Shown one piece after another: positions 1 to 40,244 of a DNA stretch of 53,602 nucleotides. The notes below the pieces were generated by a model that did no database searches, had not been told where the DNA came from, and saw only the letters and a program-made list of their open reading frames with translations. Source of the stretch: a virus. Where the stretch lies: the IMG/VR virus record IMGVR_UViG_3300021964_000094, positions 1 to 53,602 of that record, one strand, 5' to 3'. The number at the start of each line of letters is the position of its first letter. The first letter of the stretch is position 1. The position numbers and the translations under genes are program-made.

Positions 1-3000
1 GCTCCAGAATCCATCTACAGTACTATCGCTTTCTACTAATACGCTGTAAGGTCTAACCACTGCGTTAGCATTTAAATATTTTTTACCTTGATTAGTTACT
101 GTAACACTTGTAATTCTACCAAAGCTATCAACAGTAGACTCTGCTAATGCTCCAGATCCGTCACCTGTAATAGTAATCAATGGAGCTCTTTTATATCCAA
201 ATCCTGCTTCAACAATTTCTATTGTGTTAACATGACCATTAACAATGTTAATTAATAGTTTTGCTTCTCTAATTAAAGATGTAGTTTGAAATCTAAGTTC
301 TTTTTCAGAATCAATTGATACATCATAAAGATTCTTAACAAAGCTCGGTTTCTCATCTACTAGATTTAGATAACCGTAATCAATTTCATCTGCTAATGGC
401 AATGACATAAACGCATCATTGATAAATGTAATAGTTTGTTCAACTGCTTTGTTTCTATTAACAAAGATTGTTTGTCTAGGTCTACTTGAAATACCGTACT
501 TGTTTTTGTCAGTTAACGCAGGATCAGGTATTTGATTTCCTAAAATATCACTTCCTACTAAACTGTCAATCCATTTTCTTTCTAAATCTTCATTAGGATT
601 ATCTACACTTTCTTCAGTGGCTAACAAATACTCATTATGTATTAAGTTTACATCATCATTTGTTTTATAATATTGAATGTTTACGCTAAACTCGTCAGTC
701 GTTAACAGAGTTTTAAGATTACTAATAGTAATTTTGTCTTTATCAACTAGGTACGCAAACGGAACTCCAGCATTCTCTGGATTTTCAATATAATCAGCAA
801 CTTGTGATGCCGCTAATGTCTTTTCACTATTTGTTTCTTGAGTAAACTTATTCTTTACCCAGTAATAATATCTAGTTTTTGATATTTTTCCAGTTACAGG
901 ATTAACATTTCTTTTTACACTGTAAACAGTATCATCTGGATATAAAGGTGTTCCAGTTACGTCAGGATCATCTTTATTAGTTAAAGTAACATATTGGCTT
1001 GGTAAGTAAGGTGTTTCAACCCATTGATAAACATCAATTGAACTTCCTTCAGCATACTTGTTCCAATTACCGTTTCTAAATACAACATTGCCTTGTTCGT
1101 AAACTAGATATTTTACTTTTGAAGTATCCCACCAAATTTTGCCTACTTGAGCATCAGTCCAGTGTTGGCCTTCATCTATAGTTGTTAGTTCTTCATTAGA
1201 CGAGTCACTGTATACAGCAGGGTCAAAAGTAGTTTTAAAATCAATATTCTGTTCTACAATTCCTAGAACTTTTCCTTTATAATAATCTATAATATCAATG
1301 TCAGCTATCTTAGTGTATACATCTTTTTCGTATGCCGCTAAATTTTTTATCTTAGAAATATCAACTTGTGGCTGTTGTGATCTAATTGCTTCCCACGGTA
1401 ATACATTTTCAGCTTTTTCAAACTTTTGTATTCTACCAATAACAACTTCACTAAACGCAGGATCTGTAGAAAGATATTTTGGTGAACCTACAATAATTGT
1501 GTTATTACTTGTTGCTAACGCTGTACCAAAGTTTTCGTTATAATTAAGATCATCTTCAAAAATTTCGCCAAGTACCCAACGACCGCCATATTGATTAAAC
1601 ACAAAGACTTTGCCTGTAACACCTAACGGATCAGCATATTTTGTTGTTAGTCTATCAAACTTGGTTTGGTCTGTATCAAAAGTAGTTACATCAAACGTTT
1701 GTGCGCCTTCAGCAGATACTACTAACGTTTTACCGTCTGGTGAAATATCTAAATTAGATCCAAATCTTTCATCGTAATCTAATGTGTTAGATTGAATTCG
1801 TTGTTTGAATACAAAACTTGTTCCTGACCAATCAAAAACAAATACTGATCCTTGATCTTTTTCATTCTTGTCGGCATTTGGTGCGCCAACAAATAGTGTG
1901 TTACCATCTTTTGATATGATTACTTTGTAGCCAAACGCATCGCCTGGATTCAATGACGGGATAGAGTTTTTATTAATTTGCTGAACAAAGTTATAAACTC
2001 TATTTGTATTTTTCTTATAAACAAAAACTACACCAGTTCTTGGGAACGAAGTATCATTTATTTTAATCCACTTGTTATCAATTTCAGGAGCGTCATCAAT
2101 ACTTGTTAAACTAGAATCACTATCTAGCTCATAGTATTCATTGTTTCTTCTAACAATATCACCTTGAATATAAGTTTCAGTGTTTCGCCAAACACCTCTA
2201 TAATTTTCAAAATTATTTGTATCAGCATACGGAGCAGAAGCAACTAGTATGTTACCATCTTTGCTCATGCTTGTACTTGTACCAAACTTATCACCGATAT
2301 CAATATTTTCAATCTGCTCATCAGCTGTTCCTTGCTCTAGTGATGACCCATCATCTACATAAGCATTAACATTTGGAACAATGTTTTTATTAATAGTGTT
2401 TGATACTTCCCAATCGTCACTACTATCTGGAGTAGTTACACCGTCTGAAGTAAAGAATGTTGTTGCTGTATAATAAGAAGTTTGATACCATACAATGCTT
2501 CCTTCTGGATAACTTCTATTAATATCAAAAATTCCTACAAATTCTTTATCTTGTAAGAACGTCCATTTTGTTCCGTTGAACTGATATAAGTAAATCTTAC
2601 CTCTGTTATCTCTACTTCCTGGAGCAGAGATTGACATATAATAACTCTCATCAGTTGCTCCTAGATCTGTACCTAATATCTTAACTTGGTCTCCTACAAC
2701 GTATCCTGTGCCTGCTACACTAATAGTAGCACTGTAAGCGCCGCTTGCTCTTTGAATATTAAAGATTGCGCCTATTCCTGGATTTGAAATATCTTCAGGC
2801 GATACATCTAGGAAAGTTCCGCTTCCAGGGCCTGGAATGCCTACATACTCAATACCCAATGCGGCTGTGCCTGTAAAGCTAAAATATTTTATCTCACCTT
2901 CACGCTTTGTTGGAAATGGTCCTAACGACCCTAAATCTGATACTTGATTAATTCTTATTGTAATGTCGTTTTCTGGGGTTGCGCCGCCGACTGTATTTCC

Positions 3001-6000
3001 AGGAATTACAATAGTTGTTCCTGAGGTATACTTGATTAAGTTACCTTTATTATCTTTTTCTCCCCAGTCAACCCAGTTACCAGTTCCAAAAGTGGCCGAA
3101 GTTGGATCATCGTCATATGGCACATTGAATGGAAACCCTTGTACTTGTTCCCAAAACTCTGGAGATTGATTAGGAAATATTGTTTGATATGCTGAATATG
3201 CTGTAGCATCAGTTCCTGGTACTATGCCTGTTACAGTTTTTAAAACATTCCAGTATTGCGAACTGTTTTCTGGATACTTAACAACATCACCACTATCATA
3301 AGTTCTTGTAGAACTCCAAACACCTTTGTCAAATCCTGTATCTTTAACACAAGCATAAAAGAATCCATTAAATCTAACAATACTTCTAGACTTGTAACCG
3401 TTACCTGGCTGTACTGGAACTGCTGGACTTACAGAAGTGTTTTGTCTAAGTCTTACATTGTATACATCTTTGTTTTTTGTAACTGTAAGCAATGCTGATT
3501 CCGAAACTGGTCCACTTGGAATACCACTAATGTTATTAAATGTATCTGAACCTAAAATTCCGCCATTTTCGTCAACTGCTTTAACTGTAATAACAATATC
3601 GTTGTTACCTGTTCCTGTTGCTGGCTGGCCACCTACTCTTGTTCCTTGGATGTATAACTTGTCGCCTGGAGCATATCCAGTGCCTGCTGATCTAACTTCG
3701 ATGTCATAAGCAGGAATACCAGTCGATCTAGTAATATCAAACGTAGCATTTTGGCCGTCTGAACTAATGTCTGTACCACTAACATTCTCAAATAACTCAT
3801 CGTTCAGTCCGCTTGATCCATCAGCTTTTACTGAAAGTATTCCGCCAACATCGTCAACTTGATTAACTGTAAGAGTTACATCTCCGCTTGTTCCTTCAAT
3901 GCCTTCTAACTTTCCAATGTTAATAGACGATCCAAAAAATTCACTGTTTGCTTGTCTTGGACTTACTAAACTGTTTTTAAGTTTCCATTGTCCATTTGAA
4001 TATTCATAAATGTCTACTCCGCCTTGTTTGGCGTAACCTTTGTTTGCTAAAAATAATTCAGCACCAAGTGGATTCGCTTCTAATAATTCTACTGGTTGCC
4101 AGTCTTGGCTTGCTAAGTCGATTGTACTTCCGTCACCAAAGATTCTATTATTTGCTTTGTAAAGTTTACCAGCATATAATACAGTATCGCCCGGCTCATA
4201 GTCAGCATTAGTATCAAACTCTTCTTGATAGTTACTAGGAATATAACTTGCTTTCGGCGAACCTACAATTAACCATCTGCCGTCGTCACTTGCTGTAATA
4301 ACTTCAGCATACGCTCCGAGGTATGAAGGTTTTAGCCCGTCTTTAGGTGTTAAAATTTGTAAAGGAATAAGTCCTGTTTCACCATCTGAGTAAACAACAA
4401 CTGCTGAACTTCTTACTACATCACCGACGGATACCGGAGCACCTGGATTACCTACAATAGTTTGATTAAGTTGTGGAGCAAATGTTACAGCACTACCTGT
4501 ACCTGTAGGAAAAGCAATACCATACTCTGAAATTTGAGTTACGTTATACTGCTTGTTTCTCTGTACAACTTCCCAGCCGTTTGTGTTTTCAGATTTATCA
4601 ATGAAGACTTTTGAACCTGTAGGTAATTTAGCAAATCCATTGTCAATTAGTTCTTTGTAATCTGCTACTCTTACACTTTCAAAATAACTTACATAACTAA
4701 ATGAACTTTCATCTATAGTTGGTTCGTCTTTGAATCCAGCGATAGCAATAATAATCTTTTTAGGTTCAACTGCTGAAATTTGATAGAAGCCTGTAAGGCC
4801 ACTTATGTTATTAATTCCTACAATCTGTCCTACTTTAAAGTCATGTACTTTGTTTGTTTCTAACTCTACTCTATCAACATCCGGAACTGAAATACTATAA
4901 ATTAGTACATTACTAATAACGTATCTATATACGTTCCATGATCCTGGCTCAAAGGTTGTCCAAATATTATCGCCATGATTTATATCTGATAAAGGAATGT
5001 CGTTAACTAAGAAATCAAACAGACTGTTGCGGATAAAGTCTACATCACTATTAAAAATATATCCTGCTGAATTTTTAGCAACATCGTAAGTTTTTTGTGG
5101 AAGTGAAAAACTTGTATTTCCAAGCTGGTAATCAGCGTCTTTTAAAAGTATAAAATTTTGAAATTCATCTGATCTAAAAGAATTGCCATTAAGTAAAATA
5201 GGTTGTGGGTTTAACTTAAAGTTATTTGATTGTAATACAAATTCTGTTTCATCAATTTGATCTGTGCCGCCGACAGATCCCATTCTAAATGCCCATTCCT
5301 CATCTAGTACAATCTTATCATCGTCAACTTTACTAACTTTATCAAAAACTTTTTTGATAGCGTTGTTAGTTCCTTTCTCTCTACTAAATCCTTGGAACAG
5401 TTTAAACTGTGACACATCGTCCTCAGCAATTTCTTGTAGATAATTCCTTTGTTGGAAACCAACTGTGTGCTTGGCTAGTGTTTTTTGTGCCGAATTAATA
5501 CCGTCAACAGTTAGTTCGTAGTAGTCCTCAATTTGATTAACTCTAAAATCAAAGTTAGGAACTAATCCGCTTGTAGGATTGCTATCAAGTATAGACCATT
5601 TTGATTCATCAAAGGCTTTGCTACCTTTTTGGAATACTTTACTGACATAGTTATACTGCTTATATTGTACAATGTCACCTAGTTTATAATCTGTAAATTG
5701 CTTCCAAGAAAGTATATTAACATTATCAAATATAAATCCTGGGCTCGTATAATCGCCGTCCCAATCAACTGTGCGGAACCCCTTACTTTTAATTCTTTCT
5801 TGTCTGTAACCAGGTCCTTTGTCAAAAATAACATCATTGAACACTGTCTTGTCATCGAATATTGTTACATGCTCTTTTTGAACATAGTTGATCTCAGCAA
5901 AATAAATTCCTTCGGTAGTTGTTTCTGGAGAAATTAGTAATTCATTTTCTCCTCTGAAAATATCAATATCATTTGAATCTATTTTTGTACCGTCTGATCT

Positions 6001-9000
6001 TAAAATGTTATAGTCATAAAAACTATCTAATACATTGTCTGCTACAGATCCAATATTTTGGAATTTAAGTAAAGTTGCTCCGGGACTTACTGAAAGTACA
6101 CTTCCTACAGCCCAGTTGTGTGTTGTCCAGAACAAAAATTCTTTAACAGCCGTTTCCCAATCTTGAACGTTTCCTAGTTCTTTATTGTAAACATCAAATA
6201 CCATTCCTTGGTTTTCTAATAAGCGGCCATATCCTAATAAAAAGTCAACTACTGATTGTGCTGTTTCAAACACAGTATCGTAATTTAAAGTAAGTGTTGA
6301 TGATTCATCAAACTTAGTTCTTCGAACCGCTCTTGCTCCGCCGACCGTTGGAACTTCGTCTATTTTATTCCACTTGTCAGGATCAAAATTGCTTTCGGCT
6401 TCGTGAGCAATATTGGCTCTATAAAAACTATTTTGAAATTTTACTAACGTTCCTTTGATATAGAACGAGCCTTGATTCCAATCTATAAATGCTTCACTTA
6501 CTCCGCCAATATCTAGTACAGGATCGTTTTGTTGGGCAAAGAAGTCGTGATATTTAAAAATAGCATTAAGTTGATCATATCCGCCAACTTTATAGCCGCC
6601 TGCGACTTTTTCAATTAATACTCCACTGTATCTCGTAGTAAATTGTGGAGAGCTAACATTGAAGAAAACATCATAATTTTCTCTTGGTAAAAATACACCA
6701 GTTTGTGTACTTTGTGGATTTTTACTGTCTAACAAATACTGCTGTTGTTCTTTATCAATGAATCCTTTAATTCTTGTGCTTAATTTAATATCAAAGTTAT
6801 TGTAAACATCATAAAGAGCAGTTTTTGTTTGAGCATTTGATTTCAAGTAATTGATTACAAATGCTAACAATCCATCAGGTCTTGTTTCTGAAGCAAGGCT
6901 ACTAATGATATCTGAATTATTAGCAAACGTATCTGTTGACGCACTAATAAGTTGTCCTATAATATTTTTCTTTAATATTTTTCTATCTAAGTTAAGACTA
7001 ATTGTTTCAAATGGTCTTAGCAAGCATGCCGCAATAATTTTAGCATAAGGATAAACACTACTGCGTCTCCAGGCTGCCTCCGACGGTGATATATCACCAA
7101 ATTTAAAGTCAGCTCTATAATCTGTACTAAAATCAATAAATGCGTCACTTGCTAACGGGTCAAGTAACCTTCCATCGGCATCTACTGGAAGATAATCTAA
7201 TAGATTTGATCTAGTATATCTCTTATGTGTTCCTTGTCTTTCGCCTTGCTTGATAATACCATCACGCATATCTTCCCAAAGAATTAGGTTGTTACTTGTG
7301 TAAGGTGCTGGTCCATACTCATCTTCCCACCAACTTGGCTTAACTGTAAATCCTAGCATTTCCCACGGAGTTAAATGTGGCGTTACTGTATCAAACAAAT
7401 ACTGATAAACACCTCTCCAGTAACCAGGCATTGACTGTTCTCGTTTAATATCTAATGTTTTGTTAAATGTCCATGTAAATTCATTGGTTTCGTTGTAATA
7501 TGAATTAGCATATAGATCAATACCTTTAATAACCGGCCATCTTAAAAATTCTAATTCTAAAATATCATCAACTTGTTTTTTAGTAAACACGCCTGTGTTA
7601 TCATATCCACCGAATAAATTATCAGTATCTAATATTTCAGGATTATATTTTTGTTTAATATTATTATAAATTCTCTTTTCAAATTCTAATAATAGCTGGT
7701 CTCTAAAATCACCATAAGCAATAGTAACGCTTCCGTCGTGTCCTCTGATAACTGTTGTTGGATTTATAAAAGAAGTATCCTCATAAATCTCAGGAACCCA
7801 TGCTTTATATAAACCTAAACTTGTAGGAGTTTCTGGAACAAAAGTAAACGATGTAGAATAATATTCTTTAATTTCAAGTAAATCGTTTTCTTGTAGCTCT
7901 CTGATTATCTTAACAAAACCAAATTCACTATCAAACTCATAATCAATTCCGTGAATTAATTGTACATTGTTAATATACAGGTAAACTGCTTTTGTTGAAG
8001 GTGTTTCTAAATCAAATTTGTCTGATAACGCAAATGTTTTAATTCCTGTATCTTCAACTGTATATTTGGTAAGTTTATTAGCGCCAGTACCTAGCATATC
8101 CGTATTAGAAAATGCTCCTGTATCAGGCTTTGATTTTGAAATATTTGTAAGAATATCGTCTAACAAAACAATTACATCTTCGCCGCCGAACGGTATAGTT
8201 ATTGCTTGTTTTAAAATGTTACTCTTATAACTTTCGTACTGTTTAGCAGAGTGTCTTAAAGATTTAATTATGTTAAACTGCTTGTCACAAAGTAACGGCA
8301 ATGATGTAGCGGCTACAGAGCTATATTTTACAAATCTCTGTCCTTTATTTTGATATCCGTCAATGTCTCTTAAATTGCTTATACCAGGAAAACTACCTGT
8401 GAATTCTTCAGTATAATTAACCATAGATCTTAAATGATCTGTTGCTTGTCCTAAAGTAAAAGAGTCAATAGTATTGTTTAATGGATTTCTTTCTAAACTT
8501 TTTGGAAATTCATAAAAACCTAAATTAGGTTCATCGTCGGAAAATACTTTTAATGTAACAGTGTCGTCTTTATTAAAAGATATATTAGTAAAACTAAAAG
8601 TTCTTAATCCTTCAACAGTTGATACAACAGTATAATCTTCTTTTATAAATTCACCATTTAGATAAAAATACAAATTAGGTTGAACACTAGTATTCCAATC
8701 TACATTTGAAAAAGTAACTTCTGAACTATCTTCGCTAAGTGTATATGTCTGGAGTATTGCTTGATCAAATACAGGATCAGAAGGAAGATACAAATTATGA
8801 TAGCTGTAATCTAAAAGTGTGTTGTTAGTTTTAATAAAACCAGTGTTGATGTTAATATCTACATTTGAAGCATCGACTTGATATGTAAAGTTATCAACAT
8901 CCCAGTTTGATTCAAAAACAATATCGCCGCTGTTATTTAGGTTTTGGTAAGCAATAGGAAAACCAAGTTCTGTATCATTTGCGCCTGTACCTATTTTATA

Positions 9001-10743
9001 AGATACTAAGTTTGATCCTGCGAAACTTGATGTTTCGTATTTTGTATTATCTGTAAAACTAGTTCCAGTACTATCAAAAACATCAAACTTTGGTTGTTGA
9101 TTTACTGAATTCTTTGATTGGCTTTTGTTCCATGTTGTGCCATCATAATGATACATTATGCCAGCATTATTTTTTCCAAATTTAACAATTACACCTTCAC
9201 CGGCTTGTGTCTCAGCATCATCTGCTTCTACTAAAGCAATCTGTAAATTGTCAGCAATATTATTTGCTTGTATAGCAATCTTTTTAACTACAAAAATTTT
9301 GTTCTGTACCAGCGGATCTGTATCTGCTGTAAACAAAATTCTAGCGCCTTCAAAAATATCAACATTATCAATGTTATAACCTGCTGTTCCTTCAATAGTT
9401 GAAAACACATCAGTTGTAAAATCGTCAATAAAATCAATAGTTTGTTTAGCAATAGAACAGTGATTTACTAATTGAAGATTTGGTTTAAATTCAATAATGG
9501 GTCTTTTAGCTCTGTTGCTTTCACTAATCTTAGAAGCAACTTTATTAAAGTCTGCGCTATAGTCAATCACAGATCTATGGAACCATTTATTGTACCTGCT
9601 CCATGGATTTCTATCTTTACTAGATCTGTTAATTGTAATATAATCTTTATTTGATGGAAAACTTACAGCATCGTCAAATGGTAGTTCGTCCCATCCTCCA
9701 TCATCGAATAAAACATCTACTGTGTCATTAGGTACTGGCGGTAAATCTAAATCTTGAAAACTAATTAACTTAATAGCATCGCCAACTCCGTCAACTAACC
9801 AATCGCCCGAAGCATATTTTTCAGGTGTTACATTTCCTGAAAAGTTAATCTTTAAACCGTTTGAAAACTTAACACCATTAGAACTTGTATAATTTGCTTT
9901 GCCAAGTATTTCAGTACTAACATCAATTTTTGTGTTTTCGTCAATCGACGAAATTCTAAACATACCAACTCTATCAATATTGTTTCCACTTTGATAGTAT
10001 AAAACATCAGGACTATTATTAGGTATTGTAATTGTAATAGTTCCTACTTCAATGCCGTTGTTAGTTACACCGTCATTATAATCAGCAATACCACCTTCTG
10101 TTGGATTTCTTCTAATGTAAAGTGGGTCTCCAGGAGTATTAACATTTAATACGTATGTTTGTCCTCTGTACAAGTTAATGCTTGGATTAGGAGTAAGTCC
10201 GTCTGGATAAAAGATATATTCGTTTTCACCTTGGCTTCTAACTCTATATTCTGATTCTACTTCTTGAGCTTGTCCGCTTACAGAGATAGTATCAGGACCT
10301 TGTGGTAGCCAATAATACTCTCGGTAGTTAATAAACTTATCCCAGTCAATTGGTGGATTCCAGGAATAACTTTTCATTCCTGTAGTTAAGTCGTCTCTTT
10401 CGTTATTGTTGTTAAAAAATTTAAGCTGACTTTTTACATCGAGATAGTCGTAAAAATTAACAACCTTTTCATTCTCTGAATCAGTAATAACAACACCAGG
10501 CTCTAACTGATAAGCATGTCGTAATGATTGTTCTTTATCAAGATAGATGTCTTTGCTATTATAAGTTCTACCATAAGTTCTACCAATATACCCAGACAGT
10601 CTATCTAACGTTCCAGGCTGTACTAGAGGATCTAGTGTAGCACTTAGGAACTTTCTATTTGTAGGACTTTTGAAAATTTCCGGTAGTAAATCGTAGGTTT
10701 CTCTTACCGGTAACTCACTTTGTTTGAATATCTTTTTGCTCAT
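1..10743 (-). CDS. Giant baseplate/virion structural protein, C-terminus off the left edge
   Basis: The ATG at 10743 overlaps the gp6 stop (TAATG), and hand reading found no in-frame stop to position 1, giving at least 3581 residues. The N-terminus (MSKKIFKQSELPVRETYDLL) and the YREYYWLPQGPD motif match the very large structural proteins that follow gp6 in marine T4-like phages; T4 has gp7 at this place. Seen in the sequence: six 'Y..Gd.V.Y...Y' repeats resembling CBM5/12 modules (about 6400-6490, 5620-5715, 4135-4225, 3235-3330, 2450-2535, 2110-2200); FG-GAP-like beta-propeller blades at 1475-4330, such as FGYKVIISKDGNTLFVGAP near 1900; GTGYxxGD glycine-turn repeats near 3690 and 2700; and a GKIWWDTSKVKYLVYEQG motif near 1110. 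No catalytic motif or membrane segment was noticed. It probably forms the baseplate periphery or an arm that contacts the cell surface. Structural assignment is firm; equivalence to gp7 is inferred from gene order. Confidence 0.8.
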   Translation of the reverse strand, partial: MSKKIFKQSELPVRETYDLLPEIFKSPTNRKFLSATLDPLVQPGTLDRLSGYIGRTYGRTYNSKDIYLDKEQSLRHAYQLEPGVVITDSENEKVVNFYDYLDVKSQLKFFNNNNERDDLTTGMKSYSWNPPIDWDKFINYREYYWLPQGPDTISVSGQAQEVESEYRVRSQGENEYIFYPDGLTPNPSINLYRGQTYVLNVNTPGDPLYIRRNPTEGGIADYNDGVTNNGIEVGTITITIPNNSPDVLYYQSGNNIDRVGMFRISSIDENTKIDVSTEILGKANYTSSNGVKFSNGLKINFSGNVTPEKYASGDWLVDGVGDAIKLISFQDLDLPPVPNDTVDVLFDDGGWDELPFDDAVSFPSNKDYITINRSSKDRNPWSRYNKWFHRSVIDYSADFNKVASKISESNRAKRPIIEFKPNLQLVNHCSIAKQTIDFIDDFTTDVFSTIEGTAGYNIDNVDIFEGARILFTADTDPLVQNKIFVVKKIAIQANNIADNLQIALVEADDAETQAGEGVIVKFGKNNAGIMYHYDGTTWNKSQSKNSVNQQPKFDVFDSTGTSFTDNTKYETSSFAGSNLVSYKIGTGANDTELGFPIAYQNLNNSGDIVFESNWDVDNFTYQVDASNVDININTGFIKTNNTLLDYSYHNLYLPSDPVFDQAILQTYTLSEDSSEVTFSNVDWNTSVQPNLYFYLNGEFIKEDYTVVSTVEGLRTFSFTNISFNKDDTVTLKVFSDDEPNLGFYEFPKSLERNPLNNTIDSFTLGQATDHLRSMVNYTEEFTGSFPGISNLRDIDGYQNKGQRFVKYSSVAATSLPLLCDKQFNIIKSLRHSAKQYESYKSNILKQAITIPFGGEDVIVLLDDILTNISKSKPDTGAFSNTDMLGTGANKLTKYTVEDTGIKTFALSDKFDLETPSTKAVYLYINNVQLIHGIDYEFDSEFGFVKIIRELQENDLLEIKEYYSTSFTFVPETPTSLGLYKAWVPEIYEDTSFINPTTVIRGHDGSVTIAYGDFRDQLLLEFEKRIYNNIKQKYNPEILDTDNLFGGYDNTGVFTKKQVDDILELEFLRWPVIKGIDLYANSYYNETNEFTWTFNKTLDIKREQSMPGYWRGVYQYLFDTVTPHLTPWEMLGFTVKPSWWEDEYGPAPYTSNNLILWEDMRDGIIKQGERQGTHKRYTRSNLLDYLPVDADGRLLDPLASDAFIDFSTDYRADFKFGDISPSEAAWRRSSVYPYAKIIAACLLRPFETISLNLDRKILKKNIIGQLISASTDTFANNSDIISSLASETRPDGLLAFVINYLKSNAQTKTALYDVYNNFDIKLSTRIKGFIDKEQQQYLLDSKNPQSTQTGVFLPRENYDVFFNVSSPQFTTRYSGVLIEKVAGGYKVGGYDQLNAIFKYHDFFAQQNDPVLDIGGVSEAFIDWNQGSFYIKGTLVKFQNSFYRANIAHEAESNFDPDKWNKIDEVPTVGGARAVRRTKFDESSTLTLNYDTVFETAQSVVDFLLGYGRLLENQGMVFDVYNKELGNVQDWETAVKEFLFWTTHNWAVGSVLSVSPGATLLKFQNIGSVADNVLDSFYDYNILRSDGTKIDSNDIDIFRGENELLISPETTTEGIYFAEINYVQKEHVTIFDDKTVFNDVIFDKGPGYRQERIKSKGFRTVDWDGDYTSPGFIFDNVNILSWKQFTDYKLGDIVQYKQYNYVSKVFQKGSKAFDESKWSILDSNPTSGLVPNFDFRVNQIEDYYELTVDGINSAQKTLAKHTVGFQQRNYLQEIAEDDVSQFKLFQGFSREKGTNNAIKKVFDKVSKVDDDKIVLDEEWAFRMGSVGGTDQIDETEFVLQSNNFKLNPQPILLNGNSFRSDEFQNFILLKDADYQLGNTSFSLPQKTYDVAKNSAGYIFNSDVDFIRNSLFDFLVNDIPLSDINHGDNIWTTFEPGSWNVYRYVISNVLIYSISVPDVDRVELETNKVHDFKVGQIVGINNISGLTGFYQISAVEPKKIIIAIAGFKDEPTIDESSFSYVSYFESVRVADYKELIDNGFAKLPTGSKVFIDKSENTNGWEVVQRNKQYNVTQISEYGIAFPTGTGSAVTFAPQLNQTIVGNPGAPVSVGDVVRSSAVVVYSDGETGLIPLQILTPKDGLKPSYLGAYAEVITASDDGRWLIVGSPKASYIPSNYQEEFDTNADYEPGDTVLYAGKLYKANNRIFGDGSTIDLASQDWQPVELLEANPLGAELFLANKGYAKQGGVDIYEYSNGQWKLKNSLVSPRQANSEFFGSSINIGKLEGIEGTSGDVTLTVNQVDDVGGILSVKADGSSGLNDELFENVSGTDISSDGQNATFDITRSTGIPAYDIEVRSAGTGYAPGDKLYIQGTRVGGQPATGTGNNDIVITVKAVDENGGILGSDTFNNISGIPSGPVSESALLTVTKNKDVYNVRLRQNTSVSPAVPVQPGNGYKSRSIVRFNGFFYACVKDTGFDKGVWSSTRTYDSGDVVKYPENSSQYWNVLKTVTGIVPGTDATAYSAYQTIFPNQSPEFWEQVQGFPFNVPYDDDPTSATFGTGNWVDWGEKDNKGNLIKYTSGTTIVIPGNTVGGATPENDITIRINQVSDLGSLGPFPTKREGEIKYFSFTGTAALGIEYVGIPGPGSGTFLDVSPEDISNPGIGAIFNIQRASGAYSATISVAGTGYVVGDQVKILGTDLGATDESYYMSISAPGSRDNRGKIYLYQFNGTKWTFLQDKEFVGIFDINRSYPEGSIVWYQTSYYTATTFFTSDGVTTPDSSDDWEVSNTINKNIVPNVNAYVDDGSSLEQGTADEQIENIDIGDKFGTSTSMSKDGNILVASAPYADTNNFENYRGVWRNTETYIQGDIVRRNNEYYELDSDSSLTSIDDAPEIDNKWIKINDTSFPRTGVVFVYKKNTNRVYNFVQQINKNSIPSLNPGDAFGYKVIISKDGNTLFVGAPNADKNEKDQGSVFVFDWSGTSFVFKQRIQSNTLDYDERFGSNLDISPDGKTLVVSAEGAQTFDVTTFDTDQTKFDRLTTKYADPLGVTGKVFVFNQYGGRWVLGEIFEDDLNYNENFGTALATSNNTIIVGSPKYLSTDPAFSEVVIGRIQKFEKAENVLPWEAIRSQQPQVDISKIKNLAAYEKDVYTKIADIDIIDYYKGKVLGIVEQNIDFKTTFDPAVYSDSSNEELTTIDEGQHWTDAQVGKIWWDTSKVKYLVYEQGNVVFRNGNWNKYAEGSSIDVYQWVETPYLPSQYVTLTNKDDPDVTGTPLYPDDTVYSVKRNVNPVTGKISKTRYYYWVKNKFTQETNSEKTLAASQVADYIENPENAGVPFAYLVDKDKITISNLKTLLTTDEFSVNIQYYKTNDDVNLIHNEYLLATEESVDNPNEDLERKWIDSLVGSDILGNQIPDPALTDKNKYGISSRPRQTIFVNRNKAVEQTITFINDAFMSLPLADEIDYGYLNLVDEKPSFVKNLYDVSIDSEKELRFQTTSLIREAKLLINIVNGHVNTIEIVEAGFGYKRAPLITITGDGSGALAESTVDSFGRITSVTVTNQGKKYLNANAVVRPYSVLVESDSTVDGFWS

Positions 10744-23685: not shown

Positions 23686-23948
23686 GTACAGAAAGCCATG
23701 ACAAACTTATAAAAGCATTTCAAGAATACTTTAAATGGGCCGATAAGTTTGAGTATAGTGGTTCAGATGCCGCCGGCATTAAAGCACGATATTGGCTTTC
23801 AGAAATACGTAACTTCTCTAGTTTAAGACGAAACGAAATACAAGATAAAAGGCAACAACGAAAGGCAACCAGAAAAGGCGTCATAGGTAGACCCAAGAAA
23901 GTAAGTAATGCTGATGAAGACGAATCCAGCATGGACTTACCAAAATAA
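23682..23948 (+). CDS. Small basic conserved-looking protein after gp46
   Basis: 88 residues, start overlapping the gp46 stop (ATGA). I do not recognise a named family, though a similar short gene follows gp46 in some marine T4-like phages as far as I remember. It reads as a helical N-terminus (KLIKAFQEYFKWADKFEY), a KARYWLSEIRNFSSLRRNEI helix, and a strongly basic stretch (QDKRQQRKATRKGVIGRPKK) followed by an acidic tail. The 'GRPKK' run resembles an AT-hook-like DNA contact, so nucleic-acid binding is plausible. Coupling to gp46 suggests a role in replication or recombination, or in transcription; T4 gp33 is similarly small but no clear similarity is visible. Confidence 0.7.
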   Translation: MSTESHDKLIKAFQEYFKWADKFEYSGSDAAGIKARYWLSEIRNFSSLRRNEIQDKRQQRKATRKGVIGRPKKVSNADEDESSMDLPK

Positions 23949-24375
23949 ACCTATTGAATGTATTCCTGATGAATACGAAGGGTTTGTCTACCTCATCACA
24001 AACACACATACTGGGCAAAAATACGTAGGCAAAAAACTAGCCAAATTCAAAACTACCAAACCGCCACTCAAAGGCAAAAAAAATAAACGCAGAGGCACTA
24101 AAGAAAGCGATTGGAGAGACTATTGGGGCTCATCAGATCGTTTAAACGCAGATGTCCAAGCACTAGGCCCAGAAAACTTCACAAGAGAAATACTATACCT
24201 ATGTAAAGGTAGGGGCGAAATGTCCTACATAGAGGCAAGAGAACAATTTGACCGCCGTGTATTAGAGAGAGATGATTATTACAACGGTATTATTAATGTT
24301 AGAGTTGGCGGTTCAGACAAGTTACGACAGGCATTGCTAGAACATAGCATCAAGGCAAAGCAATCCAACACATAA
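23908..24375 (+). CDS. GIY-YIG-type endonuclease domain protein
   Basis: 155 residues from ATG 23908, overlapping the previous gene by 41 bases; ATG 23914 is an equally possible start. The segment GFVYLITNTHTGQKYVGKK matches the first two strands of the GIY-YIG nuclease fold, with the two conserved Tyr in 'VYLI' and 'KYVGK'. WRDYWGSSDRLNADVQALG, RGEMSYIEAREQFDRRVL and the closing YYNGIINVRVGG continue the fold: an Arg/Tyr helix, a Glu-containing helix and a final Asn. There is no C-terminal DNA-recognition module, so it is not a complete homing enzyme of the Seg type; stand-alone versions occur in marine T4-like phages. It could act on branched or host DNA alongside gp46/gp47. Domain call is good; biological substrate unknown. 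Confidence 0.75.
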   Translation: MLMKTNPAWTYQNKPIECIPDEYEGFVYLITNTHTGQKYVGKKLAKFKTTKPPLKGKKNKRRGTKESDWRDYWGSSDRLNADVQALGPENFTREILYLCKGRGEMSYIEAREQFDRRVLERDDYYNGIINVRVGGSDKLRQALLEHSIKAKQSNT

Positions 24376-24796
24376 GGTTAGCGGGCCAGTTTAGAAATAC
24401 CGCTGTGAAAAAAGTCTCCGTATAGGAACACACGTACACGTTGATCGACACACCAGAGTGTGGAAGCCATCAAAAGAATTGGGCTCACTGGTTGACGTAG
24501 ATAGAATGTTGGCTGTCGAAAAACTGTATATTACACATAAAAACTCCTTAGCACTAGGAACGAGGCGGGAGGTAATGTATTATAAAGAAGGCATAAAAGC
24601 GTTTTATGCGCTCTATATAGTACATAATGTCGACGTAGGTTGGGAAAGGTCAGAGCCCATTGTGTAGCAGTATAATAAACACCTACTTCCAAGTCTCGGC
24701 TGTGACGGACTCACATAAAGTCAAGATTAGATGGAACCCTTAAACAGGTTCCGTCTGACTGAAACAATCTACATAAAGCTAAAATTGCTTCGCAAT
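24376..24796 (+). ncRNA. Hairpin-dense interval, candidate structured RNA
   Basis: No convincing gene lies here. Inverted repeats seen directly: AGCGG 24380-24384 with CCGCT 24400-24404; CACAC/GTGTG 24449-24462; TTGAC/GTCGA 24492-24519; TCCT/AGGA 24545-24559; GCATAAAA/TTTTATGC 24591-24609 (8 bp, loop GCG); GTAGGT 24635-24640 with ACCTAC 24681-24686, enclosing TGGG/CCCA 24641-24659; AGATGGAACC/GGTTCCGTCT 24729-24756 (10 bp with one G-U), extended by outer AGTC/GACT; and AATTGC/GCAATT 24783-24797. The region is less AT-rich than typical spacers. It follows the gp47-gp46 early unit and ends just before a late promoter, so it may be a stable 3' untranslated region or an independent RNA. No known RNA family was recognised and no tRNA cloverleaf was found. 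Confidence 0.35.
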
Positions 24797-24806
24797 TATT
24801 ATATTG

Positions 24807-24814
24807 TATAAATA
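24807..24814 (+). promoter_or_regulatory. Perfect T4-type late promoter
   Basis: TATAAATA exactly matches the T4 late consensus and is in the right orientation for the gene at 24897. Transcription starting about 6-8 bases downstream would give an untranslated leader of about 75 bases holding two adjacent hairpins. Confidence 0.8.
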
Positions 24815-24829
24815 TCTATAATAAAAAAA

Positions 24830-24875
24830 TGTGTTTGAGCGATAGCGATAAACACAAGTGAGCTTTAGCTCACTT
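24830..24875 (+). promoter_or_regulatory. Double-hairpin 5' leader of the gene at 24897
   Basis: TGTGTTT (24830-24836) pairs with AAACACA (24850-24856). It is immediately followed by AAGTGAGC (24856-24863), loop TTTA, GCTCACTT (24868-24875). Both stems are perfect, share one base, and end 21 bases before the ATG. No run of T follows, so they are more likely mRNA-stabilising or translational elements than terminators. Confidence 0.55.
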
Positions 24876-24896
24876 ATTAATATATGAGATTGTTAA

Positions 24897-26204
24897 ATGA
24901 AACTGAATCAATTAGAAAATATCGAACATCTAGATGAAGCACCACAAGGCATATTCAAAAGAATGGGCTTAAAAACAAAATCAGCTTTTGGAAGTGATGT
25001 TGCTAAAGGACAACTTCAATCAGGTGATGCAGCAAATAAACTAAAAAAAGAATATATGCTGTTTGTGGGGCGTATGGCAGGGAAAGTTGGTACAACAAAG
25101 CCAACAACAGATACACTTCTTGCGTTCCTAAAAAGCAAAGGTGCTGATACTAAAGCAGTTGCTGGCATGATTGACAAAGAGCTACAGGCTCTTGCGCCAC
25201 AACAGCAAGAACCAGTTTCAAATGAGCCTTCAGCTGAACCTGAAAAGACAGAGCCGGAAGTGGGTTCCGATACTGAGCTAGACAAACTTAAATCACAAAA
25301 TTCAACAGATCAAAATAACCCTCTCAAGCCGGGCAACAATACAACAAATATGAAACAAACAGATTTGGGTTTGGACAATCCGAATGATCCTCAAGGCGAT
25401 CTGTTTAAAAGTAATCCAATTCCGAGCATGTCTACTAACAATACTACTGTTACTACAAAAAGAAAAAAGACAGGTGGTAAAATAGCCGGAAAAACTTCTA
25501 TGACCAAAAATGCTATTAGAAAACGTAATAGTAGAAAGAAACCTGGAGATCAACTAGAATTACTATCAATGTACAGTGAACAATCGCAACGCTACAGAAA
25601 AAACTTTGAACGCATTGATTGGACACTAAAAGAAGATCAAGCATACTTTGACGCACTTGAATTTATGGGTGTTATGGAAGCTGAAATTCCAACAAAAGTA
25701 TTAGACAAAGTATTAAACAGTGTAGCAGTAGATTTAACAGAACCGGCTGCCGCAGATGTTAACGCACCACAAGATGATCAACAGTCAGGACAAGATGATC
25801 AACAGTCAGGTGCTGACAATGCTGGCACACAAAAGAAGGGTGGCGGCCTTTTAAAAGGCATAGGCAAAGCAGTTGGCGGCGTTTTTGACAAAGCCAAAGA
25901 TGGTGTACAGTCAGGCCTAGGTGATAATCCTGAAGATAAACAAGCCTCAAAGATTTTTGATCCAGATGACGAAAAAGGCACCGGACAGATGCGAGGTACA
26001 TTAAATTACCAGAACATCAGTAAAGAATTTCCGGGAATCGATCCTACAATGTTAAGAAGAAGTATGTCTAAAAGTTTACAAGGACAACCACTTACTAAAT
26101 CTGAACATGAAACTATGTCTTTAGCAATGACAGAACTAGTAAAGAAAAATCCTCAAGATACAGTTAAAGTTATGAACTTGTTTAAGCAAGCAAGGCAAGA
26201 TTAA
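24897..26204 (+). CDS. Low-complexity probable virion protein of unknown function
   Basis: 435 residues, not recognised. The N-terminus (KLNQLENIEHLDEAPQGIFK, then a helical segment KKEYMLFVGRMAGKV) is compact. Residues about 95-230 are rich in Gln, Asn, Pro, Thr and Lys, with a basic patch (TTKRKKTGGKIAGKTS; RKRNSRKKPG). A folded helix segment YRKNFERIDWTLKEDQAYFD follows, then two QSGQDD-type repeats (DDQQSG twice, near residue 293), a Gly/Lys segment GGGLLKGIGKAVGGVFDKAK and a helical C-terminus. It has a perfect late promoter and structured leader, so it is made late and is likely packaged or used in head assembly; basic low-complexity regions recall internal head proteins. Its stop shares bases with the stop of the convergent small gene. 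Confidence 0.75.
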   Translation: MKLNQLENIEHLDEAPQGIFKRMGLKTKSAFGSDVAKGQLQSGDAANKLKKEYMLFVGRMAGKVGTTKPTTDTLLAFLKSKGADTKAVAGMIDKELQALAPQQQEPVSNEPSAEPEKTEPEVGSDTELDKLKSQNSTDQNNPLKPGNNTTNMKQTDLGLDNPNDPQGDLFKSNPIPSMSTNNTTVTTKRKKTGGKIAGKTSMTKNAIRKRNSRKKPGDQLELLSMYSEQSQRYRKNFERIDWTLKEDQAYFDALEFMGVMEAEIPTKVLDKVLNSVAVDLTEPAAADVNAPQDDQQSGQDDQQSGADNAGTQKKGGGLLKGIGKAVGGVFDKAKDGVQSGLGDNPEDKQASKIFDPDDEKGTGQMRGTLNYQNISKEFPGIDPTMLRRSMSKSLQGQPLTKSEHETMSLAMTELVKKNPQDTVKVMNLFKQARQD

Positions 26205-39693: not shown

Positions 39694-39794
39694 CATGTGT
39701 CAGATAGTGTACCACCAAAGGTGGTGGGCTTATGCTGTTACCCACAGCGTACCGGATAGAACCCGGATAGGACTACTTTTATAGGAGAAAACAA
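39694..39794 (+). promoter_or_regulatory. Structured 5' leader with alternative pairings
   Basis: ACCACC (39711-39716) pairs with GGTGGT (39720-39725) through a 3-base loop, but GTGGG (39724-39728) can instead pair with CCCAC (39741-39745). The two helices overlap by two bases and therefore exclude each other. CCGGATAG is repeated directly at 39752-39759 and 39763-39770, and the two CCGG can pair. AGGAG (39782-39786) precedes the ATG. A regulatory RNA or leader hairpin is inferred; no known riboswitch class was recognised. Confidence 0.4.
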
Positions 39795-40244
39795 ATGGGA
39801 AGACCACTTAACAAAAAATTCTTTGGACCACCTACATTGGGTGGAAATGAAATCAAATGTGATTTCTGGGGCACAGCAGGTGTGCTTGAAGGTTACATTG
39901 TAAAACAGCTAGGATCTAAAAAATTCCGTGTTGCCGCTATCGGAACACCAGGAACTACTTATGATCGTTATCTAACAACAGGTAAATTAGCATCAGCACT
40001 AACAGGTACTGAAATGGCAATTACTATGTTAATGGATGATTCAGAAACATACCAAGTTTCAAAAATCGCAGGACGTAGAGCAACATTGATTGCTCCAGAT
40101 GGCACAGGTTCTAATGCTTATGATGGCAAAAGTGTACCATGGAACTTTGCGGCTGATACTGGCGACGGTGCTGCACAAGTTGAAGAAGCTGGTGACGACG
40201 ATACATTGATCGGCACAGACGACGACGATTTTGCTAACGCATAA
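39795..40244 (+). CDS. Small virion protein with the MGRPLNKKFFG start
   Basis: 149 residues. The start MGRPLNKKFFGPPTLGGNEI is a pattern I associate with virion proteins of marine phages; the body is beta-rich (GYIVKQLGSKKFRVAAIGTP, GTEMAITMLMDDSETYQVSK, AGRRATLIAPDG) and looks like one or two small SH3-like barrels. The C-terminus is very acidic (DDDTLIGTDDDDFANA). It has a good ribosome site (AGGAG) and its own late promoter with a structured leader, so it is probably made in high amounts. A head decoration or fibre-associated role is an inference. Upstream of a fibre gene by 24 bases. Confidence 0.7.
   Translation: MGRPLNKKFFGPPTLGGNEIKCDFWGTAGVLEGYIVKQLGSKKFRVAAIGTPGTTYDRYLTTGKLASALTGTEMAITMLMDDSETYQVSKIAGRRATLIAPDGTGSNAYDGKSVPWNFAADTGDGAAQVEEAGDDDTLIGTDDDDFANA

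Follow-up and report, generated by a model that had tools for sequence, protein, structure and literature searches.

GOLLD is a large ornate phage RNA with a conserved 3' region and a variable 5' region (PMC12286853). HEARO/omega RNA, which accompanies IscB, is a structured RNA adjoining a nuclease gene. Polynucleobacter-1 (RF01718), whose Rfam model is confined to 141 nt at the 5' end, was rated 'probably' cis-regulatory in a table of Weinberg et al. (2010; PMC2864571). Here we analyze a window of 53,602 nucleotides (positions 1 to 53,602 of IMG/VR virus record IMGVR_UViG_3300021964_000094) and find, at 24351-24782 (+), a structured noncoding RNA of ~430 nt, termed type A; this is shown by sequence comparison, without transcript data or structure probing. 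The RNA is undescribed as a family and is present in hundreds of uncultured T4-like phages from fresh and coastal water. It meets the GOLLD pattern of a conserved 3' domain and a variable 5' domain, but has no Rfam sequence or structure match to the GOLLD (RF01998) or ROOL model and is about half the size. Like HEARO/omega RNA it adjoins a nuclease gene, but the nuclease is of a different family, GIY-YIG, and occurs in other phages without the RNA. From Polynucleobacter-1 it differs in its 5' and core architecture; yet a sister RNA, type B, that contains Polynucleobacter-1 shares with it the 3' domain, the repeats, the GIY-YIG neighbour, and the locus.

Extent and covarying structure of the type A RNA

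The initial annotation, made from the sequence alone, had proposed a phage structured noncoding RNA at 24376-24796 and had named inverted repeats there, all of which are present in the window where it placed them: GCATAAAA (24591-24598) with TTTTATGC (24602-24609), AGATGGAACC (24729-24738) with GGTTCCGTCT (24747-24756), and GTAGGT (24635-24640) with ACCTAC (24681-24686), the last with GGG/CCC inside. Its further remark that the interval is less AT-rich than its surroundings concerns a weak feature (G+C of 0.40-0.46 vs. 0.29-0.42 in most neighbouring intervals). In the shuffled-control folding check that it suggested, none of 100 dinucleotide shuffles folds as well as the + strand of 24376-24796 (z -3.43), the - strand is not better than shuffles (z -1.30), and the 5' half alone folds at chance energy (z +0.35). 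Because the energy of the 5' half is not unusual, thermodynamics alone is a weak argument: it is comparative evidence, not folding energy, that settles that the RNA is real.

Nearly all of the 80 closest IMG/VR homologues of the upstream GIY-YIG protein are followed, from the stop codon onwards, by sequence related to the window, and a protein-independent search with the RNA core pattern GTAGGTTGGGAAAGGTCAGAGCCCATTG returns at least 120 stretches. From IMG/VR we recovered at least 88 distinct full-length type A RNAs; counts of relatives are lower bounds throughout. Searches by blastn with types A, B, and C against phage isolates gave no real match. Many IMG/VR contigs (L002, L005, L011, L013, L017, and others) end inside the type A RNA, and it is probable that the conserved sequence breaks assembly.

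The consensus structure was derived from the 88 distinct full-length RNAs, and pair counts were made on a 44-sequence tool alignment of the 5' half. In these 44 sequences the 31 proposed 5'-half pairs are formed in 97.1% of cells (86.2% in shuffled alignments), compensatory change is seen in 17 of the 31 pairs (12.5 shuffled), and 165 cells show both-sided change (58.5 shuffled); 0 of 500 shuffles reach these values, and sliding the partner by 1-3 columns destroys the covariation signal. Under a tree-based null only about ten column pairs passed, some of them not base pairs; few pairs pass because module swapping makes this null heavy, and pair-wise tests were used instead. The results show strong compensatory covariation among homologous intervals on the + strand. 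We conclude, by sequence comparison, that the secondary structure is conserved and, together with the absence of an Rfam match, that the proposal of a phage structured noncoding RNA is supported.

The covarying structured part of the RNA spans 24376-24782 (+). At its 5' end, helices 24381-24384/24400-24403, 24404-24407/24431-24434, and 24414-24419/24425-24429 (24381..24434, +) show UA36/AU8 and GC/CG/UA compensatory changes; helix 24438-24444/24492-24498 (24438..24498, +), which surrounds an exchangeable inner hairpin, shows UA25/CG19, AU27/GC16, and similar changes with 98.9% of cells paired; and helix 24500-24504/24513-24517 (24500..24517, +) shows compensatory change in 4 of 5 pairs. A long-range helix (24533..24665, +), formed by ACACA (24533-24537) and TGTGT (24661-24665), encloses the central hairpins and occurs in four versions (GTACA/TGTAC, ACACA/TGTGT, GTTCA/TGAAC, and ATACA/TGTAT), with all 5 pairs formed in 87 of 87 sequences. 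Within it are helix 24544-24547/24568-24571 (24544..24571, +; UA24/CG16 and CG31/GC11), around a conserved GGAACGA, and the central hairpin that contains GCATAAAA/TTTTATGC (24576..24626, +), which is length-variable and is replaced in relatives by hairpins of other length and sequence. The core, GTAGGTTGGGAAAGGTCAGAGCCCATTG ... ACCTACTTCC (24635..24686, +), is nearly invariant across relatives, and for that reason neither the pairing around GTAGGT...ACCTAC nor an alternative pairing of GTAGGTTG with CAATCTAC can be decided by covariation. In the 3' domain, the 10-bp hairpin at 24729..24756 (+) is paired in 96.7% of cells, with changes that are mostly one-sided.

These comparisons bear on the rival explanation that the interval is a protein gene that has diverged, or else hairpins clustered by chance. 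In favor of a protein gene is one 69-aa frame, starting with GTG at 24458, which is the longest open reading frame of the region; against it, the frame is intact in 1 of 88 relatives, and no reading frame is conserved across them. Against chance hairpins are the compensatory base changes. We regard this rival as all but excluded. The initial annotation's view that there is no credible gene thus held. Its statement that the RNA does not look like a family it could name is borne out, and by sequence the RNA is unlike GOLLD or ROOL: in 24200-25000 no Rfam family matches, even with E up to 5.

Three architectures behind one GIY-YIG gene

The gene upstream of the RNA (23908..24375, +) encodes a GIY-YIG endonuclease-like protein of SegE type (Pfam SegE_GIY-YIG PF19835, E 4e-35; phrog_447), and its stop codon abuts the structured part. 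A conserved AGGCAAA-type element lies ~20 nt upstream of the structured part, within the 3' end of this gene, and we assign the last 25 nt of the gene (+) to the RNA as its conserved 5' element. The GIY-YIG gene stands in front of the type A RNA in every locus with enough upstream DNA; in six of these loci another small, unrelated open reading frame intervenes between gene and RNA, and there the conserved element (GGCAAA..CAATCCAACACATAAGG) remains with the RNA. Because the element travels with the RNA, we conclude that the RNA is its own unit, which in the window starts slightly inside the end of the upstream gene.

A second rival explanation makes the RNA a guide or cofactor of the GIY-YIG protein next to it, much as HEARO/omega RNA is for IscB. 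Consistent with this are the constant adjacency, the presence of one SegE-like gene beside the RNA per phage (except for one weak second match), and the overlap of the RNA start with the 3' end of the gene. Against it, the protein family occurs without the RNA in cyanophages, Melnitz, and others; an unrelated reading frame intervenes in the six loci noted above; the protein stays 95% identical while the RNA switches from type A to type B; and there is no hypervariable guide-like end. The obligate pairing with an IscB/HNH-type nuclease that marks HEARO/omega RNA is absent, the neighbour being a SegE-type GIY-YIG protein. We consider the guide explanation unlikely. The idea that the RNA is a general companion of the GIY-YIG family was rejected, since cyanophages, Melnitz, and other loci have the protein without the RNA.

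Behind closely similar GIY-YIG proteins the RNA can be of another architecture, with types A and B occurring beside proteins that are 95% identical. A supposed hybrid neighbour at 99% protein identity was set aside: it is a type A RNA with one base changed. The RNA belongs to a superfamily in which a single locus hosts three architectures (A, B, and C) as well as C/A recombinants, a relationship beyond what the initial annotation could see. The type B pattern is present in at least 120 viral stretches; the GIY-YIG gene precedes the RNA in 113 of them, the upstream sequence is too short in 4, and the gene is absent from 3. For type C, all 22 loci that have sufficient DNA on that side carry the gene. 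In the recombinants (L244, L245, L248, L391, and L392), a type C 5' domain is joined to a type A core and 3' domain. In L078 and L198 a type B RNA has a central hairpin region ~130 nt longer than that of its relatives. Two recombinant loci, L391 and L392 (PBPT01000016.1 and PBPT01000082.1), lie on contigs (335 and 153 kb) that had been assigned to a Neomarinimicrobiota genome bin; with a recombinant RNA and a phage GIY-YIG gene, these contigs are probably a misbinned large phage.

The first 141 nt, at the 5' end, of type B correspond to Rfam Polynucleobacter-1 (RF01718): type B relatives score 67-72 bits against this model, for which the gathering score is 37 bits. The window RNA itself fails the RF01718 covariance model, with no match in 24200-25000 up to E = 5. 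The 3' domain connects the architectures. A covariance model built from 26 type A 3' domains only gives 31 hits (E 2e-17 to 1) in 545 kb of mostly type B and type C loci, and all 31 are at the position of the RNA's 3' domain as defined by the coordinates of the type B and type C patterns. Since a model made only from type A matches B and C, we conclude that the 3' domain is homologous in all types, and that the rest of the RNA has been exchanged between types or has diverged beyond recognition; locus, exchange of 5' and core modules, and homology of the 3' domain are thus each shown by sequence comparison. The window RNA therefore shares with the full-length Polynucleobacter-1 RNA a locus and a 3' domain, a feature absent from Rfam. 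A scan for Polynucleobacter-1 in 369 bacterial genomes of one class gave no match, and no positive control matched either.

Two repeats of the 3' domain that change together

The 3' domain carries two 8-nt direct repeats, ACTC-R1 and ATCT-R2, ~57 nt apart with a hairpin between them; in the window both R1 (24713..24720, +) and R2 (24771..24778, +) read ACATAAAG. Over the first seven positions R1 equals R2 in 97 of 98 type B RNAs and in 85 of 88 type A RNAs, and the shared 7-nt motif varies between RNAs (among its forms are ACATGAA, ACATAAT, ACGTGAA, AGATAAT, GGATAAT, GGATGAA, GCATAAT, and GAATAAT). When these columns are left out of tree building, parsimony counts ~39 mirrored changes of R1 and R2 in type B and ~14 in type A, about 50 overall, and in type B the R1/R2 column-pair scores equal those of the best Watson-Crick pairs, though by identity. 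The type B set of 98 was preselected for at least 6 of 7 R1/R2 matches. In the unselected set, six loci first counted as repeat-less do have the repeat on inspection, and a single row (L485) differs, at position 1. The lockstep of the repeats is shown by sequence comparison; like the place of Polynucleobacter-1 within one architecture, it was beyond the view of the initial annotation.

Searches for the partner of the repeats were largely negative. No third covarying site, that is, no column comparable to R1/R2, is present inside the RNA, and no complementary partner for the repeats was found there. Neither the flanks nor ten phage contigs of 54-236 kb, including the window, are enriched in the complement of the phage's own repeat variant (in the contigs, 0.79 of expectation, against 0.86 for other variants). 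A partner in cis was not found for type B; for type A there is a weak positive, possibly reflecting shared ancestry. A reading of R1 as the hairpin loop of a covarying stem is weakly supported in A and absent in B.

A rival explanation of the lockstep is that R1 and R2 are kept identical by gene conversion or slippage, without a common partner. The closeness of the copies (~57 nt) and the absence of an identified partner favor this rival. Against it, conversion would be expected to spread past the motif, and the identity stops sharply at 7 nt: the CTC and TCT in front of the copies differ without exception, and in most sequences so does position 8. We consider conversion unlikely, and it is on this ground, that conversion should spread beyond the motif yet does not, that we prefer double docking, in which both repeats would engage one kind of partner. 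Double docking itself is inferred from the lockstep of the repeats. The data give no support to a partner within the phage genome, and a protein dimer and a host nucleic acid are both compatible with the data.

A further rival is an ornate, self-assembling RNA of GOLLD/ROOL kind (cage or ring), whose repeats serve assembly. Phage origin, size, a pseudoknot, and a conserved 3' with a variable 5' region as in GOLLD (PMC12286853) favor it; against it are the lack of Rfam similarity, a location that is not beside tRNA islands (no tRNA in the window, and 0 or 1 in four large related contigs), and repeats without a complementary partner inside the RNA. We judge this rival unlikely but still possible, and assembly of this kind could be combined with docking.

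Transcription unit, downstream gene, and proposed function

Downstream of the RNA, three hairpins read directly at 24783..24876 (+), comprising 24783-24797, the GAGCGATAGCGA hairpin at 24830-24856, and 24857-24876, are possible terminators. Their arrangement is alike in types A, B, and C; a consensus terminator scan found none. The sequence TATAAATA (24807..24814, +), also read directly, is a T4-type late promoter motif, and in 73 of 74 type A loci TAAATA occurs no more than 120 nt from the next gene, vs. 3.7% of random 120-nt stretches. The next gene (24897..26204, +) lies outside the RNA and has no PHROG or Pfam match; the beginning of its product, MKLNQLENIEHLDE|A, is similar to a capsid-targeting sequence of T4. 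Genes after the RNA (24897-26204 and homologues) often encode a brief stretch at the N terminus that ends in (L/I)xE. By analogy with T4 capsid-targeting sequences cleaved by the prohead protease, these genes are candidates for internal head proteins.

The remaining rival is that the RNA regulates the downstream gene in cis, as a leader or riboswitch. In its favor, the next gene in type A is codirectional in 68 of 70 loci, at a median of 144 nt downstream, and Polynucleobacter-1 carries the 2010 rating of probably cis-regulatory (PMC2864571). Against it, about half of the genes that follow type B (38 of 78) are convergent, the RNA is set apart from the gene behind it by the terminal hairpins and a late-promoter motif, and the next genes differ among loci. 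The constant position upstream of a codirectional gene that is expected of a cis-regulatory element is thus lacking, type A alone being mostly codirectional. We consider a leader very unlikely. Convergent type B genes, the late promoter motif, and the hairpins make the 2010 rating unlikely for the full-length RNA, which is here free-standing and phage-borne; Polynucleobacter-1 represents only part of a longer phage RNA and is probably not cis-regulatory.

On balance, and with moderate confidence, we favor a free-standing phage RNA that acts in trans and exposes, in its 3' domain, two copies of a motif to an unidentified partner. According to this proposal, an RNA of ~430 nt would be transcribed from the + strand behind the sbcD, sbcC, and GIY-YIG genes and would be closed by the terminal hairpins; the variable 5' domain and the pseudoknot-like core would hold up the conserved 3' domain, which would present two copies of one 7-nt motif flanking a hairpin. 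R1 and R2 would be two docking sites for one partner, which could be a phage protein that forms dimers or else RNA or DNA of the host, and a change in the partner would force an identical change in both repeats. A trans-acting role fits all tests; the mechanism is inferred, with no transcript observed and no partner identified. A bolder reading, which we raise only as a possibility, is that of a bivalent anti-host RNA superfamily with Polynucleobacter-1 as one branch, in which the motifs would track a fast-diversifying partner outside the phage genome; within that same tentative reading, the partner would most likely be a host nucleic acid. What the locus contributes is a large structured RNA, hitherto undescribed, that is frequent among uncultured T4-like phages from freshwater and coastal habitats. 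It also offers a signature that is rare and can be tested: within a single RNA, two sites have to match each other by identity, not by complementarity. Identifying what the repeats bind would bring to light a hitherto unknown function for a phage RNA.

Two other features of the window lie apart from this locus. At 1-10743 (-), an open frame of at least 3581 aa, a giant phage protein, runs off the left end of the contig and adjoins a baseplate wedge gene. At 39711-39797 (+), directly preceding a small gene in the vicinity of the major head protein, is a freshwater-2 RNA (RF02980, 78.6 bits), which is present in 10 of 10 related contigs searched.
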